Assembly (NCBI RefSeq): GCF_014637725.1
Contig: NZ_BMFC01000001.1
Location: 498,632 to 562,631, forward strand
DNA: 64,000 nt
Source: Marivita lacus
GTDB lineage: Bacteria > Pseudomonadota > Alphaproteobacteria > Rhodobacterales > Rhodobacteraceae
Direction: 5' to 3'
Part shown: in pieces, positions 6,129-15,266 of the stretch
Layout of the letters: each line of letters starts with the position of its first letter
Numbering within the stretch: position 1 is the stretch's first letter
Program-made: the position numbers and the translations under genes
The notes under the pieces: model-generated
Seen by the model: only the letters and a program-made list of their open reading frames with translations
Database searches by the model: none
What the model was told of the DNA's origin: nothing

Positions 6129-6877
6129 CAGAGTTTCTCCAGCGCTTTGTCGAGCCATCCCAGAAAGCCCTTTGGCTCTTGCACCACCGGGGCGAGCAGC
6201 GGGGCGAGGATGTCGATCTCTTCGTTCAGCCGATCCTTGGGGCGCGGCGGCAGGTATTTGTTGACGGGCTTGGTGCCTAGTTCCGGCATCAGGTCCATCC
6301 CGCCACGTTCCGCGACCAGCTGGCTCACGTCGCTGTCGGGATCGCCCAGATCCCCGAAGTGGCGGGCATTCGACGGACAGGTCCGTACGCAGGCAGGCAC
6401 GCGGTCTTCCTCGGGGAGGTTTTCGTTGTAGATGCGATCCACGCAGAGGGTGCATTTCTTCATGACACCTTCCGCCTTGTCCAGCTCGCGCGCACCGTAG
6501 GGGCAGGCCCAGGCACAGAGGCCGCAGCCGATGCAGTCTTTCTCGTTGACCAGAACGATCCCGTCCTCGGTGCGCTTGTAGCTGGCGCCGGTCGGGCAGA
6601 CGGTCACGCAGGGCGCGTCTTCGCAATGCAGGCAGGATTTCGGGAAGTGAACAAGCTGCGCCGGGCCAGTCTCGGGCTGCACTTCGTAGGAGTGGATGCG
6701 GTTCAGGAACGTACCGGAGGGGTCCGCGCCATAGGGATTCTGGTCGGACAGCGGCGCGCCGTAGTTTTCGGTGTTCCAGCCCTTGCAGGACACGACACAG
6801 GCATGACACCCGACGCAGGTGTCGAGGTCGATCACCAGTCCCATCTTGCGGTCGGTCTTTTCGGGAAGCTGCGTCAT
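6128..6877 (-). CDS. soeB: Sulfite dehydrogenase iron-sulfur subunit (SoeB)
   Basis: This 249-residue ferredoxin-type subunit has four cysteine clusters: C21/C24/C27/C31, C82/C85/C90/C94, C115/C118/C121/C125, and C142/C145 with C163/C167. These should hold four 4Fe-4S centres that carry electrons from the molybdenum subunit to SoeC. There is no signal peptide, which places it in the cytoplasm. The start at 6877 overlaps by ATGA the stop of the 54-residue protein gene upstream. DmsB-like subunits have the same layout, so the Soe name depends on context. Confidence 0.85.
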   Translation of the reverse strand: MTQLPEKTDRKMGLVIDLDTCVGCHACVVSCKGWNTENYGAPLSDQNPYGADPSGTFLNRIHSYEVQPETGPAQLVHFPKSCLHCEDAPCVTVCPTGASYKRTEDGIVLVNEKDCIGCGLCAWACPYGARELDKAEGVMKKCTLCVDRIYNENLPEEDRVPACVRTCPSNARHFGDLGDPDSDVSQLVAERGGMDLMPELGTKPVNKYLPPRPKDRLNEEIDILAPLLAPVVQEPKGFLGWLDKALEKL

Positions 6878-7038
6878 GTGCGGCGGTCCTCCGTCATCAT
6901 GTGTGTTGGCGTCTGGTGGAACCCGACCGGCTGCTCTGCTTCTTTGTCCCAGGTGGCGACAAACCAGATGAATGATGCGGCCATGCCGATCAGAACCACG
7001 GCAATCGCGATCAGAGTGGCTTTCATTGCGGCGTTCAT
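6874..7038 (-). CDS. 54-residue single-helix membrane protein within the soe operon
   Basis: I translated this gene by hand from the minus strand. It encodes 54 residues: a short MNAAMK lead, one hydrophobic helix (about residues 7-28), then a charged C-terminal tail ending DRRT. Its ATG overlaps the soeA stop (ATGA, 7035-7038) and its stop overlaps the soeB start (ATGA, 6874-6877), so all bases between soeA and soeB are used in coupled translation. This strongly suggests a real gene. The position suggests a small extra subunit or assembly factor of the sulfite dehydrogenase; that is inference. I know of no such subunit in described Soe or Dms enzymes. Confidence 0.75.
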   Translation of the reverse strand: MNAAMKATLIAIAVVLIGMAASFIWFVATWDKEAEQPVGFHQTPTHMMTEDRRT

Positions 7039-9973: not shown

Positions 9974-11107
9974 TCACCGATCCTCGACAGGCACCCAGGC
10001 ACGCGGTTCGGGGCCGTTATAAAGCGTCAGCGGACGGATCAGGATATTGCCGCGCTGCTGTTCGATGCATTGGATCACCCAGCCGGGCATGCGCCCGATG
10101 GCAAAGATCGGGACATAGAGATCCATCGCGATGCCGTGCAACTGATAGATCACGCCGGAATAGAAATCCACGTTCACGTTCAGGCCATGCCGGCTGTAGG
10201 GTTTCATCGCCTCGACGACGGCTTGCAGGATGGCGTACCATTCCGGCGCGCCCATTTCCTCGCCCAGCTTGCGCACCCCTTCGCGCATGTGGCGCGCGCG
10301 CGGGTCTTCGGCGCGATAAACCCGATGCCCGAACCCGGTGACCGCCTCGCGGTTGGCGCGCTTGGCCTTGACATAGGCTTCGGCGTTTTCCGGCGTGCCG
10401 ATCTCTCGGACCATCTTCATCACGTCTTCCGCAGCACCCCCATGCGCCGGACCTGCCAGCGTGCTGAGCGCCGTGACAATGGCCCCGTGCAGGTTGGCTT
10501 CGGTCCCGACCGTCACCCGCGCGGCAAAGCTTGACGCGTTCGCACCGTGTTCGGCATGGAGAACAAAATCCACATCCGCCAGACGCGCCGCATCCTCGGA
10601 CGGCGTTTCGCCCTTGAGCATCCAGAGCCAGTTCGCGGCATGGCTCAGGCTGTCGTCGGGTGCCACCGGATCGCGCCCGTTGCGGATGGCCTCGTGCGCT
10701 GCGACCAGTGTCGGCACCTGCGCGGTCAGACGCATGCCATTGCGCAGAAACGCCTCCTCCCCAGTTTCAAGGCTGTCCGGCTCCAGCGCCGCCAGCGCGG
10801 ACACCGCCGTGCGCAGCACATCCATCGGGTAACCGTCCTTGCAGGTGCGGATGATGTCGAGCACCGCATCCGGCACGGCGCGCGCCGCCCTCAATGCGCC
10901 GTCGAAAGCCGCAAGTTCGCTGGCGGTCGGCAATTCACCCTTCATCAAGAGGTGGCAGACCTCCTCGAAGGTCGCGTGGGTCGCAAGGTCGTGGATCGAA
11001 TACCCGCGATATTGCAGCATCCCTGCGGCACCGTCGATGTCGCTGACGCCCGATCGCTCGAAATACACCCCTTTCAAACCTCGGTTTATCTTGACGTCAT
11101 CGGCCAT
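9974..11107 (-). CDS. Citrate synthase family protein
   Basis: This 377-residue protein is a short, type-II-like citrate or 2-methylcitrate synthase. The catalytic residues are visible: H222 (GPAHGGA), H261 (GFGHRVYR) and D314 (NVDFYSG). It condenses acetyl-CoA (or propionyl-CoA) with oxaloacetate. Next to pta, ackA and xsc it probably feeds the acetyl group of sulfoacetaldehyde into the TCA cycle. The start at 11107 is only 36 bases from the divergent pta start. Citrate and methylcitrate synthases of this size cannot be told apart by eye. Confidence 0.8.
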   Translation of the reverse strand: MADDVKINRGLKGVYFERSGVSDIDGAAGMLQYRGYSIHDLATHATFEEVCHLLMKGELPTASELAAFDGALRAARAVPDAVLDIIRTCKDGYPMDVLRTAVSALAALEPDSLETGEEAFLRNGMRLTAQVPTLVAAHEAIRNGRDPVAPDDSLSHAANWLWMLKGETPSEDAARLADVDFVLHAEHGANASSFAARVTVGTEANLHGAIVTALSTLAGPAHGGAAEDVMKMVREIGTPENAEAYVKAKRANREAVTGFGHRVYRAEDPRARHMREGVRKLGEEMGAPEWYAILQAVVEAMKPYSRHGLNVNVDFYSGVIYQLHGIAMDLYVPIFAIGRMPGWVIQCIEQQRGNILIRPLTLYNGPEPRAWVPVEDR

Positions 11108-11143
11108 TGAAGGCTCCTTTGCGGTGGGAATCGGGAGAGCGAC
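11108..11143. promoter_or_regulatory. 36-base divergent start region, citrate synthase / pta
   Basis: Only 36 bases separate two divergent start codons. Each gene has a ribosome site here (AAAGGAG toward citrate synthase, GGGAG toward pta), leaving no room for two complete promoters. At least one promoter must lie inside the opposite coding region, or one start is annotated too far upstream. Confidence 0.5.
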
Positions 11144-12007
11144 ATGAGTGTTCTGAACGCGGCGCGCGCCATTGCAGCGGGGTCTGACACCCGCGTGGTG
11201 TTTCCCGAACTGGACGATCCGCGCGTGGCAGAAGCCGCGCGGCACTTGACCGGGAATGATTTGTGTTCCGTTCTGGGCGTCACACCCGAGATTACAGATG
11301 CGCAAGTCGCGGTGTTGGTGCGCGCGCGCGGGATGAAAGAGGCAATGGCCCGGCGGCTGTTGCAGAAACCGCTGTACCGGGCTGCTGCCATGGTGGCTGC
11401 GGGCGAGGCGGACGCGATGGTGGCCGGTGCAGACAGCCCGACCCGGCGTGTGATCGAGGCCGCGAGCATGGCCATCGGCCTTGCCGACGGTGTCACGATC
11501 CCGTCGTCATATTTCCTGATGCTGTTCCCGGACGGACGCACGTTCGTGTTTGCCGATTGCGCCGTGAACGTCGCGCCGGACGCGACCGCGCTCGAAGCCA
11601 TCGCGCGCGCCTCGGCGGACACGGCACGCGTGCTTTTGGGGTCAGCGCGGGTTGCGCTGCTGTCGTTCTCGACAGGCACCAGCGGCGCGGGCGACAGCGT
11701 GGATACGGTGCGCGCGGTTGCAGAGGCCACCGGGTTTGACGGACCGGTGCAGGCGGATGCGGCATTGAACGCAACCATCGCCGCAAAGAAGGGTTTGGGC
11801 AGCGGCGATGCAAACGTGCTGGTCTTTCCATCGCTGGACGCGGGCAACATCGCGTACAAGCTCTGCCAGGAACTGGCTGGCGCACAGGCCATAGGGCCGT
11901 TCCTGCAGGGTTTTGCCCGACCGGTCTGTGACCTGAGCCGGGGCGCCACGGCAGAGGACATCGTGGCCTCCACGCTGGTCACCATCGCCCTCGCGCAGCG
12001 CGCCTGA
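11144..12007 (+). CDS. pta: Phosphate acetyltransferase
   Basis: This 287-residue protein has the PTA_PTB fold signature: VVFPELDDPRV near the start, ADAMVAGADSPT, a central LLFP-like segment and LVFPSLDAGNIAYKL near the end. It converts acetyl phosphate and CoA to acetyl-CoA and phosphate. Acetyl phosphate is the product of Xsc. It is shorter than the usual 320-340-residue domain, mainly between residues 30 and 60. The gene runs opposite to xsc and ackA and converges on ackA with a 10-base gap. Confidence 0.85.
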   Translation: MSVLNAARAIAAGSDTRVVFPELDDPRVAEAARHLTGNDLCSVLGVTPEITDAQVAVLVRARGMKEAMARRLLQKPLYRAAAMVAAGEADAMVAGADSPTRRVIEAASMAIGLADGVTIPSSYFLMLFPDGRTFVFADCAVNVAPDATALEAIARASADTARVLLGSARVALLSFSTGTSGAGDSVDTVRAVAEATGFDGPVQADAALNATIAAKKGLGSGDANVLVFPSLDAGNIAYKLCQELAGAQAIGPFLQGFARPVCDLSRGATAEDIVASTLVTIALAQRA

Positions 12008-12017
12008 GTCATCGGTC

Positions 12018-13178
12018 TCACGCCGCCTCCAGCAAGGCCGCGGCGTCCATTGCGATCATGCGCTCTTCTTCGGCGGGGATGACCCAGACTGAAACCTTGG
12101 AACTGTCCGCATGCAGGCGTGGCCCGGAGCGGTGGTTGAAGTCCGGATTGATCCGAACCCCGGCCCATTCCAGCCCGCGCAAAATCCGCGCCCGGACACC
12201 AACGGCGTTCTCGCCGATACCGCCTGTGAACGCGATGGCATCCAAGCCTTCCAGCGCCGCGATCAGAGACCCGGCATGGCGCAGCGTCCAGTAGCAGAAA
12301 TGTTCGACGGCAAAGGCGCTCTCGGCAGAGGCATCGACCATGAGCTTGCGCATGTCTGACTTGCCGCCGGAGAGGCCCAGCAATCCGCTTTCGTGGTTCA
12401 GGATCGCCTTGGTGCGCTCCAGCCCGTTTTCCTCGACCAAGCGAAGCACGGCGTTGGCGTCGATCCCGCCGGACCGTGTGCCCATGGTCAGACCATCGAG
12501 CGGCGAGTACCCCATCGTGGTGGCGATGGATTGCCCGTTGTGGATCGCGCAGAGCGACGCGCCGTTGCCGAGGTGAAACGCCAAGAGGCGCGAGGGCAAC
12601 GCCTCGCCCGAGACTTCGGGCAAGCGACGCACCAGAGAGGCATAGCTCAAACCGTGGAACCCGTAGCGGCGGATGCCCTTGGTCTCCATCATCTTGGGGA
12701 TCGCATAACGCGTTGCAACACTTGGGTTGGTGGCATGGAACGAGGTGTCAAAGCTCGCGAACTGGGGCAAGTCGGGGGCAAGACGCGACAGAGCCTCCAT
12801 CGGGGCAAGGTTGTGCGGATTGTGCAACGGTGCAAGCGGCGTGCAGTTGGCAATCTCTGCGCGCACCTGATCGGTGACGCGCATCGGCGCCGTCAGCTTG
12901 CGCCCGCCATGCACCACGCGATGCCCAACCGCGCGCAACCGGTCGGGCGTGATGCCGCGATCCGACAGCGCTTTCAGGATCGCCTCAAGCGCGGCGCGGT
13001 GATCAATGAGCGGGGTGTGTCGCCGGTCGTCACCGATCTGCAGACTGGACGCCGCACCGATGGCGTCGGCCATTCCCGAGAGTGTCTCGGTCAAAGCCGC
13101 ATCGAACAGCGCGAACTTGATCGAGGAAGACCCCGCATTGAGAACCAGGATCGGCCCGTCCACTGCGGGGTCAGCCAT
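12018..13178 (-). CDS. ackA: Acetate kinase
   Basis: This 386-residue ASKHA-fold kinase shows the expected motifs: ILVLNAGSSSIKF at the start, FDTSFHAT, YGFHGLSY, HLGNGASLCAI and MGTRSGGID. It makes ATP and acetate from acetyl phosphate, or works in reverse. The start at 13178 follows the xsc stop by one base, so the two are one transcript. Together with pta it gives the cell a choice between substrate-level ATP and acetyl-CoA. Length is normal. Confidence 0.92.
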   Translation of the reverse strand: MADPAVDGPILVLNAGSSSIKFALFDAALTETLSGMADAIGAASSLQIGDDRRHTPLIDHRAALEAILKALSDRGITPDRLRAVGHRVVHGGRKLTAPMRVTDQVRAEIANCTPLAPLHNPHNLAPMEALSRLAPDLPQFASFDTSFHATNPSVATRYAIPKMMETKGIRRYGFHGLSYASLVRRLPEVSGEALPSRLLAFHLGNGASLCAIHNGQSIATTMGYSPLDGLTMGTRSGGIDANAVLRLVEENGLERTKAILNHESGLLGLSGGKSDMRKLMVDASAESAFAVEHFCYWTLRHAGSLIAALEGLDAIAFTGGIGENAVGVRARILRGLEWAGVRINPDFNHRSGPRLHADSSKVSVWVIPAEEERMIAMDAAALLEAA

Positions 13179-13179
13179 C

Positions 13180-14958
13180 TCAGGCGACCTGCTGCGGGCG
13201 CATGTCCGCCGGGTCGATTCCCGCCACCGCAACCGGCGGCTTCATCGCGTCACGGCGGAACGGTTCCCCCAGTTCCTGGTTGATCATGGCTTCGATCAGA
13301 GTGGTCTTGCCATGCTCCATCTGGTCCTTGATCGCGGTGTCCAGCGCATCGCGCAGTTCATCCATCGTGCGCGCAACGACGCCCTTGAGACCACATGCCT
13401 TGGCGATGGCGGCATAGCTGACGCCCTCGTCGAGTTCGGTGCCGACGAAATTGTCATCGTACCACAGCGTCGAGTTGCGCTTTTCCGCACCCCATTGGTA
13501 GTTGCGGAACACAACCTGAGTGATGGCGGGCCATTCCGGGCGACCGATGGCGGTGAGTTCGGTGACCGCGATGCCGAAGGCACCGTCGCCAGCAAAACCG
13601 ACCACCGGCACGTCCGGGCATCCGATCTTGGCACCCACAATGGACGGCAGACCGTAACCACAGGGGCCGAACAGACCCGGCGCAAGGTATTTCCGGCCCT
13701 CTTCGAACGACGGGTAGGCGTTGCCGATGGCGCAGTTGTTGCCGATGTCTGACGAGATGATCGCGTCTTTCGGCAGCGCCGACTGGATCGCGCGCCACGC
13801 CATGCGCGGGCTCATCCAGTCCGGCTTGGCGGCACGGGCGCGTTCGTTCCAGGACGTGCCCGGATCGTCTTGTTCGTGGTCCATGCTGGACAACTGCTGC
13901 GCCCATGTGGACTTGGTTTTCGCGATTGTGGCTTTTCGGTCCTCGCGGCCCTCATCGCCCGCAGTGTCAGACAGCCGCGCGAGGATGCCATCGGCCACCT
14001 TTTTCGCGTCACCGACGATGCCGACGCTGACTTTCTTGGTCAGGCCGATACGGTCGGGGTTGATGTCGACCTGGATGATCTTGGCCCCCTTGGGCCAGTA
14101 GTCAATGCCGTAGCCCGGCAGGGTCGAGAACGGGTTGAGGCGCGTGCCAAGGCAGAGCACCACGTCTGCGCCGGAAATCAGCTCCATCGCGGCCTTGGAG
14201 CCGTTATAGCCCAACGGACCAGCGAACAGAGGATGTGAGCCGGGGAAGGCATCGTTGTGCTGGTAGCCCACACAGACCGGCGCGGTCAGCCGTTCCGCCA
14301 GTGCCATCGACGCGGGGATCGCACCGGCGAGAACCACGCCGGCACCATTCAGGATCACGGGGTTTCTGGCGGTCGACAACAGGTCTGCCGCCTGCTGAAT
14401 CGCGCTGTCGCCACCAGAGGGGCGTTCGAATTCGACCACTTCGGGCAGGTCGATGTCGATCACCTGCGTCCAGAAATCGCGCGGCATGTTGATCTGTGCC
14501 GGGGCAGAGGCGCGCTTGGCGTTCAGGATCACGCGGTTCAGCACTTCGGCCACGCGGGAGGCATCGCGTACCTCTTCCTGGTAAGCGACCATGTCTTCGA
14601 ACAGCTTCATCTGCTCGACTTCCTGGAAACCACCCTGGCCGATGGTCTTGTTCGCGGCCTGCGGCGTGACCAGCAAAAGCGGCGTGTGGTTCCAATAGGC
14701 GGTTTTGACGGCGGTCACGAAATTGGTGATGCCGGGGCCGTTCTGCGCGATCATCATGCTCATCTTGCCAGAGGCGCGGGTGTACCCGTCAGCCATCATC
14801 CCGCCCGAACCTTCATGCGCGCAGTCCCAGAAGGTGATGCCCGCTTTCGGGAAAATATCCGAAATCGGCATGAAGGCAGACCCGATGATACCGAACGCAT
14901 GTTCGATCCCGTGCATCTGCAGGACTTTGACAAAAGCTTCTTCGGTGGTCATTTTCAT
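13180..14958 (-). CDS. xsc: Sulfoacetaldehyde acetyltransferase
   Basis: This 592-residue thiamine-diphosphate enzyme splits sulfoacetaldehyde with phosphate into sulfite and acetyl phosphate, the central step in use of taurine, isethionate and related sulfonates. The TPP glutamate is E49 (AHEGSGG), and the C-terminal TPP/Mg motif runs GDGAFG ... NYQWG. The start at 14958 (MKMTTEE) has a GGGAG ribosome site and matches Xsc N-termini; a longer in-frame extension is not supported. ackA follows after one base. Size and motifs are normal. Confidence 0.95.
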   Translation of the reverse strand: MKMTTEEAFVKVLQMHGIEHAFGIIGSAFMPISDIFPKAGITFWDCAHEGSGGMMADGYTRASGKMSMMIAQNGPGITNFVTAVKTAYWNHTPLLLVTPQAANKTIGQGGFQEVEQMKLFEDMVAYQEEVRDASRVAEVLNRVILNAKRASAPAQINMPRDFWTQVIDIDLPEVVEFERPSGGDSAIQQAADLLSTARNPVILNGAGVVLAGAIPASMALAERLTAPVCVGYQHNDAFPGSHPLFAGPLGYNGSKAAMELISGADVVLCLGTRLNPFSTLPGYGIDYWPKGAKIIQVDINPDRIGLTKKVSVGIVGDAKKVADGILARLSDTAGDEGREDRKATIAKTKSTWAQQLSSMDHEQDDPGTSWNERARAAKPDWMSPRMAWRAIQSALPKDAIISSDIGNNCAIGNAYPSFEEGRKYLAPGLFGPCGYGLPSIVGAKIGCPDVPVVGFAGDGAFGIAVTELTAIGRPEWPAITQVVFRNYQWGAEKRNSTLWYDDNFVGTELDEGVSYAAIAKACGLKGVVARTMDELRDALDTAIKDQMEHGKTTLIEAMINQELGEPFRRDAMKPPVAVAGIDPADMRPQQVA

Positions 14959-15266
14959 GGTGGCTCTCCCTGGGAAGGGCGCAGGCCAAAGGACCGGCGC
15001 GGTTGGCCGGACAGTAGCTGGGAGTCGCCGCGGCCAATAGGGCCACATTGGACTGCCGCTTATAGCCAATTTACCACAGATGCCTGTCATCGTGGAGGAC
15101 AGGCAAGCCACGCGAAACATGGTTTTACTACAATCCCGCAGCATTTGTGCCGTATTTCAAATGCAGTATGGTGACCACATCGTGAAACAGGACCAGCTTC
15201 GGGCTGTGAGTACCCGTGTACATGATGTAACGCGCACTGAACCGCACGCTAACGGCAGGACCCTAA
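14959..15266. promoter_or_regulatory. Divergent intergenic region xsc / polysaccharide genes
   Basis: This 308-base region lacks a convincing gene. Close to xsc it has GCCAAT at 15033-15038 and again at 15065-15070, exactly 32 bases apart (about three helix turns), with an inverted ATTGG at 15047-15051. Such spaced repeats suit a dimeric activator for xsc. The right half is AT-richer and should hold the promoter of the ligase-like gene. Confidence 0.4.

Follow-up and report, generated by a model that had tools for sequence, protein, structure and literature searches.

A conserved single-helix protein gene at the soeA-soeB junction of Marivita lacus and other Rhodobacteraceae, a candidate accessory gene of SoeABC sulfite dehydrogenase

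Introduction

Does the sulfite dehydrogenase operon of Marivita lacus encode a fourth protein of the complex, or does the short open reading frame (ORF) between soeA and soeB, here called X, only bridge two coupled genes? SoeABC sulfite dehydrogenase (sulfite:quinone oxidoreductase) is given with three subunits in PMC8076601, where SoeAB is hypothesised to lie on the cytoplasmic side, and soeABC of R. pomeroyi corresponds to SPO3557-3559, adjoining pta (PMC4334477). Among the titles and abstract openings of the open-licence PMC literature, no paper on a fourth Soe protein was found. The preliminary description of this locus held that X exactly fills the gap between soeA and soeB, that coupling at both of its ends is hard to explain by chance, and that X is a fourth small subunit or an assembly factor.

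Results

The soe operon of the window

In the window, which is the whole stretch of 64,000 nt that was analysed, the single-helix ORF was read as described, exactly filling the soeA-soeB gap with an ATGA overlap on both sides (Table 1). X thus has at both ends the 4-nt stop/start overlap with its neighbours by which coupled pairs are recognised in termination-reinitiation. The 3′ end of soeA carries a Shine-Dalgarno-like AAGGTGG in addition to the ATGA common to soeA and X, and the soeB stop and soeC start overlap by 1 nt (TGATG).

Table 1. Positions of the soe genes, X and its overlaps in the window
Feature	Position	Strand	Remarks
X ORF, 54-aa single-helix protein, MNAAMKATLIAIAVVLIGMAASFIWFVATWDKEAEQPVGFHQTPTHMMTEDRRT	6874..7038	-	54 codons + TGA
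soeA, molybdopterin subunit, 942 aa	7035..9863	-	PF00384 + PF04879 (Pfam)
soeB, Fe-S subunit, 249 aa	6128..6877	-	Fer4 families (Pfam), 4Fe-4S domains
soeC, DmsC-type membrane anchor, 290 aa	5256..6128	-	PF04976, 47.5 bits, cutoff 22.3
ATGA overlap, soeA stop / X start	7035..7038	-	
ATGA overlap, X stop / soeB start	6874..6877	-	
Conserved core ASFIWFVATWD, X residues 21-31	6946..6978	-	helix end and just beyond

According to Pfam, all three soe genes match subunit types of a SoeABC or DMSO-reductase-type complex; the name soe is that of the preliminary description and the literature, and no Soe-specific model was matched. Gene order and subunit types are the same as in the SoeABC of PMC8076601, with the difference that X lies inside the operon of the window, while the consulted text of that source gives three subunits and makes no mention of X. 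Pfam also identified genes for citrate synthase, phosphotransacetylase, acetate kinase and a TPP enzyme beside soeA, at 9974-15144 of the window. The TPP enzyme gene is presumably xsc, and these neighbours form a sulfonate-degradation neighbourhood, which fits the oxidation of sulfite released by sulfonate breakdown. We infer that the complex of the window would oxidise sulfite, given its subunit types and gene order and the presence nearby of genes for the TPP enzyme, acetate kinase and phosphotransacetylase.

Conservation of X and selection on it

In a search of 61 genomes, X relatives were found in 13 of 16 other sampled Marivita genomes, at the same place and with 4-nt overlaps at both ends (in L011 the overlap at the X start is GTGA in place of ATGA), and a strong relative was also present in 1 genome of another genus; all 14 relatives lie between soeA and soeB. 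Among 11 Marivita sequences, window included, X diverged by 0.116, 0.118 and 0.397 at the first, second and third codon positions, the corresponding values for the core being 0.084, 0.066 and 0.41. Its dN/dS was 0.14 as a whole, 0.083 over residues 2-36 and 0.35 in the tail; in the same genus the soeA end gave 0.040 and the soeB start 0.019. These ratios were taken from the 11 of 14 genus sequences that are of equal length, using only pairs with dS between 0 and 1.5 (of 55 pairs, 40 for the whole of X, 36 for residues 2-36 and 43 for the tail). Since third positions diverge most and dN/dS is low, the helix and motif of X are under clear purifying selection, which is weaker than that on the enzyme subunits, and the same two measures rule out a chance ORF. 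Of the checks proposed in the preliminary description, the search for the same small gene in other Rhodobacteraceae found it in part of them, and the test for purifying selection was positive. X is a real, conserved gene.

AlphaFold2 predicted for X a helix at residues 3-29 followed by a loose tail, with a block pLDDT of 95-99 over residues 1-30. The motif SFIWFxATWD is common to X relatives across genera, and all 36 members of the largest alignment have F23 and W30, while L9, I12, S22, T29 and D31 are at least 90% conserved. Mean net charge is +1.4 on the N side and -1.8 on the C side, N exceeding C in 34 of the 36, so by the charge rule the orientation is probably N-in/C-out. Membership in a known family was considered and rejected: every match of the window X to Pfam and NCBIfam was below the curated cut-off, the 36 members likewise had nothing above cut-off in these libraries (best E-values 0.0075 and 0.0091), and a sequence search of the PDB found no convincing relative.

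Distribution of X

Of 394 family genomes, 35 had a match to a profile built from the 14 relatives at E <= 4e-8, and the next best one was at E 0.005. In a class-wide search of 385 genomes, strong matches were obtained only in G000 and G334, both Rhodobacteraceae, and none outside this family (next best E-value 0.003). A scan of genome contigs from 84,980 species yielded 105 relatives, 80 of which were kept, a set that rests on one peptide pattern. The kept relatives belong to Marivita, Roseovarius, Yoonia, Octadecabacter, Loktanella, Thalassobacter, Shimia and others, and further ones are labelled just Rhodobacteraceae, Rhodobacterales, Paracoccaceae or Alphaproteobacteria. One 3.1-kb contig (L344) comes from a metagenome-assembled genome labelled Gammaproteobacteria; its SoeB is 83% identical to that of the window, and we take it for a putative mis-binned contig. 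As far as seen, X thus appears confined to Rhodobacteraceae.

X was located between soeA and soeB in all 31 profile-search loci read (window included) and in three more profile matches (G280, G205 and G373) from the junction survey, making 34 of the 35 read for place with G260 left out. The same was true of all 80 named loci, L290 among them, a set that partly shares genomes with the profile matches, and no X relative read sits away from soeA and soeB. X is by no means part of every SoeABC operon: an X-type ORF occurred in 32 of 149 surveyed genomes (the best-scoring part of 285, window counted) and was absent from most surveyed loci. One of these 32 (L184) is degenerate, with the X helix kept and the TWD motif lost.

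Coupling across the soeA-soeB junction

The junction survey comprised 150 of 285 family genomes with soeB, from the best-scoring part, together with 13 same-genus loci, and it leans to relatives of the window because of this choice. The counts based on 149 and 111 exclude the same-genus loci L002-L014 as well as L032, which comes from the genome of L012, and all survey counts refer to the best-scoring part. Direct overlap of soeA and soeB was seen in 38 of 163 loci, by the 4-nt ATGA in 34 and by 1, 8 or 85 nt in four. When each genome was counted once, a gap of 25 to 1179 nt was present in 111 of 149, and its length divided by 3 left a remainder of 1 in 85 of the 111, of 0 in 21 and of 2 in 5; a remainder of 1 is what 4-nt overlaps at both gap ends require. 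Remainder-1 gaps of at least 30 nt were open throughout in 83 of 84 cases, against 21.7 expected from shuffles.

We counted as a chain a series of ORFs each of which hands over to the next at an overlapping or adjoining stop and start. The chain from soeA to soeB was unbroken in 109 of the 111 opened junctions, the exceptions being L078 and L181, compared with 30.5±4.2 for shuffled gaps and 26.8 after random deletions of 1-2 nt. Under a stricter hand-over the count was 99, against 24.1 (maximum 34) for shuffles, and real DNA segments of equal length gave 47.3 (maximum 61) under the loose rule and 39.2 (maximum 51) under the strict one. Gaps of up to 300 nt that hold no X kept the chain in 55 of 56 cases, where 23.2±3.4 were expected. 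Among the named X loci it was unbroken in 77 of 80, in 25 of them via more than one ORF, and broken in L285, L305 and L342. Controls for the chain test were soeB-soeC gap lengths, shuffles and swapped segments; by contrast with soeA/soeB, the soeB/soeC pair overlaps by 1 nt in 120 of 162 loci and is separated by more than 10 nt in only 9.

The soeA-soeB junction therefore behaves as if its coupling were guarded, inserts being kept as overlapping ORFs, and strong selection for translational coupling is probably its best reading. Because the junction mostly shows double 4-nt coupling whatever its content, such coupling is silent on what X does; relatives without X keep it by unrelated ORFs, and the argument that the preliminary description drew from it is rejected. 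The same description had named a non-conserved or frameshifted gap of varying length in relatives as what would refute its reading. Length and content do vary in most genera, from -85 to 1179 nt, though not in the 32 of 149 genomes with X nor in most of Marivita.

What occupies the junction

Within the family the junction may be empty or may hold X, short ORFs unrelated to it, or whole genes. The short ORFs are without likeness to X, and several of them have a repeated GSGAEP-like peptide. This peptide recurs in the gaps of L043, L080, L173, L174, L202, L209, L219 and L238, and it is also found in the X tails of L084, L296 and L330, a pattern that looks as if one repeat element had inserted repeatedly and been read through. 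Four of the whole genes were tested by Pfam and correspond to an alpha/beta hydrolase (L040), a LysE exporter (L048), DUF6882 (L059) and an M42 peptidase (L170). Hydrolases of the L040 type were recognised by likeness in L063, L078, L081, L087, L168, L176, L191, L199, L214, L228 and L288, and the junction hydrolase may have a link of its own to sulfite metabolism. The gaps of L037 and L057 (883 and 898 nt) contain 245 and 261 open codons on the opposite strand, which by eye resemble a secreted protein; the frame on the soe strand is nonetheless open for 296 and 301 codons, overlapping soeA and soeB. In L044 the longest relay frame differs from the frame of a stretch that by eye resembles DUF6882.

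X itself lies downstream of another ORF in L046, L053, L091, L160, L164, L208 and L212, and upstream of one in L050, which has this ORF between X and soeB, so that the idea of X always adjoining soeB is wrong. In L283, L325, L340 and L342, a distance of 50 to 96 nt separates the end of X from soeB.

Ancestry and loss of X

Outside the family, junctions were read in 25 of 82 matching genomes, and 20 of them have a start that produces the 4-nt soeA/soeB overlap; the original state was thus most likely direct overlap, into which X was inserted within the family. On a SoeABC tree, on which one outgroup row (L241) was placed among the family rows, the 45 X rows among 162 family rows need 19 changes of X, compared with a shuffled mean of 39.8, and at least 16 of the 19 are forced by well supported branches, a count that cannot separate gain from loss. 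X is clustered on the tree but was lost or moved many times, and its patchiness is most simply explained by repeated loss.

Within Marivita, G003 is without X and has a 4-nt soeA/soeB overlap, its SoeB being 96% identical to that of the window, and in G008 a 24-aa relay ORF stands in place of X. G014 has two soe copies (L348 and L349), one cut by the contig end and the second divergent, with a hydrolase-like gene in its gap; the second may be foreign, since 5% contamination is listed for this genome. The direct overlap of soeA and soeB in G003 means that X is dispensable, and its absence from most loci as well as from this close relative means that SoeABC does not need it.

Covariation of SoeABC with X

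The number of alignment columns covarying with X was compared with that for traits simulated on the tree. SoeA had 24 such columns against 4.5±3.1, and SoeB 8 against 1.0±1.3, numbers reached by none of 181 simulations, while SoeC, the expected partner of X, was not significant as a whole (5 against 2.2±2.0, 12.7% of simulations as high). In a scan of 19 windows with 400 simulations, on a tree made without the strongest segment, the signal peaked at kept columns 561-640 of SoeA (about residues 651-730), with 13 columns against 0.9 simulated and a simulated maximum of 9. Lesser excesses were seen at SoeA 81-160 and 721-800, SoeB 161-240 and SoeC 161-240 (reached in 0.3 to 1.5% of simulations, uncorrected), the last being the one of four SoeC windows that reaches 1.5%, uncorrected; for SoeA 641-720 the figure was 3.3%. 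An independent-pair test of the SoeA segment, whose position was picked post hoc, gave 5.4 pairs with and 0.2 against the association, of 13 pairs (median p 0.0625).

At about residues 651-674 of the window's soeA product, SoeA is of two types (roughly WLTxxGRGxxNEAQxDSYIANG and ..PDQLDRYIENG). Both occur in scattered places on the tree, with a tendency to track presence or absence of X. G003, which is without X, retains the X-type segment, which would follow from a recent loss of X or from a purely allelic link. Simple linkage through recombination round the junction is not favoured as the cause, because the signal peaks at SoeA 561-640 and not beside the junction; exchange of whole recombined alleles could be the source of the SoeA signal. 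We therefore regard the covariation as suggestive of a link between X and SoeABC. If the N-in reading is right, the motif would lie in the periplasm and could not touch a cytoplasmic SoeA.

Discussion

On balance we incline to reading X as an accessory protein with one helix that belongs to the membrane-bound SoeABC, a small subunit or stabiliser inserted in the soeA/soeB junction. The gene would sit inside a probable ancestral 4-nt overlap, and ribosomes finishing soeA would restart at once on X and then on soeB, as the overlaps and published work on reinitiation suggest. The helix, residues 3-29, would probably insert N-in/C-out and may pack beside SoeC via the helix and the SFIWFxATWD segment, so as to stabilise or tune the complex, while the C-terminal tail would be a mostly free spacer ending at the soeB start. 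What remains of the preliminary interpretation is a single-helix protein that is conserved, is under purifying selection, has no family model and occurs, as far as read, at the soeA-soeB junction only; the argument from double coupling falls away. A role of X as fourth subunit or assembly factor is an inference in both accounts, and the subunit claim appears plausible.

A close rival, which we consider unlikely, is that X is an assembly factor, which would hold on to SoeC or the Fe-S subunit while the enzyme matures and then leave the finished form. Such a role would suit a small, dispensable protein encoded just before SoeB, as well as a covariation that is greater with SoeA and SoeB than with SoeC, but nothing in Pfam or NCBIfam showed an above-cut-off resemblance of X to a chaperone or maturation family. 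X might also serve another membrane process, for example sulfite/sulfate export or a quinone enzyme, and merely ride in the operon, as genes for the LysE exporter, the hydrolase and DUF6882 do at the same junction; a hitch-hiker should be met elsewhere too, however, and the finding of X at soe in 31 of 31 profile loci and 80 of 80 named loci makes this rather improbable. The unbroken chains in 109 of 111 opened junctions of the best-scoring part, 55 of 56 short non-X gaps included, could mean that X is a translational relay only, its sequence being of little weight as in the unrelated short ORFs that seem to carry ribosomes from soeA to soeB, and the variable tail with its repeat-like peptide in L084, L296 and L330 agrees with this. 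A pure relay needs neither the strong amino-acid selection on residues 2-36 (dN/dS 0.083) nor a cross-genus motif, and we judge it very improbable as a full account. That X is a spurious ORF, of which GC-rich DNA yields many by chance, is contradicted by its conservation, dN/dS and motif, and has practically no probability left.

Small single-helix subunits resembling X are known from respiratory complexes, such as CydX and CcoQ. NdhP of NDH-1L (PMC4131877) is, like X, of about 5 kDa with one helix, and a similar way of working is our reading. In contrast to NdhP, CydX and CcoQ, X matches no family model above cut-off and is dispensable and patchy. With regard to translation, reinitiation is reported to require an overlap or a very short distance, being nearly lost at about 20 nt, and subunits of complexes are over-represented among overlap-coupled pairs (PMC10666635). 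The ATGA pairs of that work and the soe genes alike have 4-nt overlaps between genes of complex subunits; the soe junction differs in that DNA of many kinds lies there and yet stays open and overlapping, by which coupling can persist, a situation that the consulted portion of that work does not describe.

The guarded junction is at least as interesting as the accessory-protein reading of X. We tentatively propose, as a possibility that we would sooner doubt than accept, that the junction is a protected relay. An insert would persist only where a single ORF or a set of overlapping ORFs makes it readable all the way between the soeA stop and the soeB start, and this would hold for repeats and for the antisense of another gene as well. 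X could then have been born from such a relay ORF, serving at first as a spacer only and later coding for a membrane protein whose core is selected and whose tail is still free.

Marine roseobacters have in SoeABC a route for oxidising sulfite, and the enzyme has been described with three subunits; a conserved fourth protein from the soe operon, if true, would change how the complex is purified, modelled and annotated. The soeA-soeB junction is in addition a natural experiment on translational coupling, with many different inserts nearly all kept readable. It shows how strong selection for the coupling of complex subunits can be, and suggests a route by which small genes may be born between overlapping genes.
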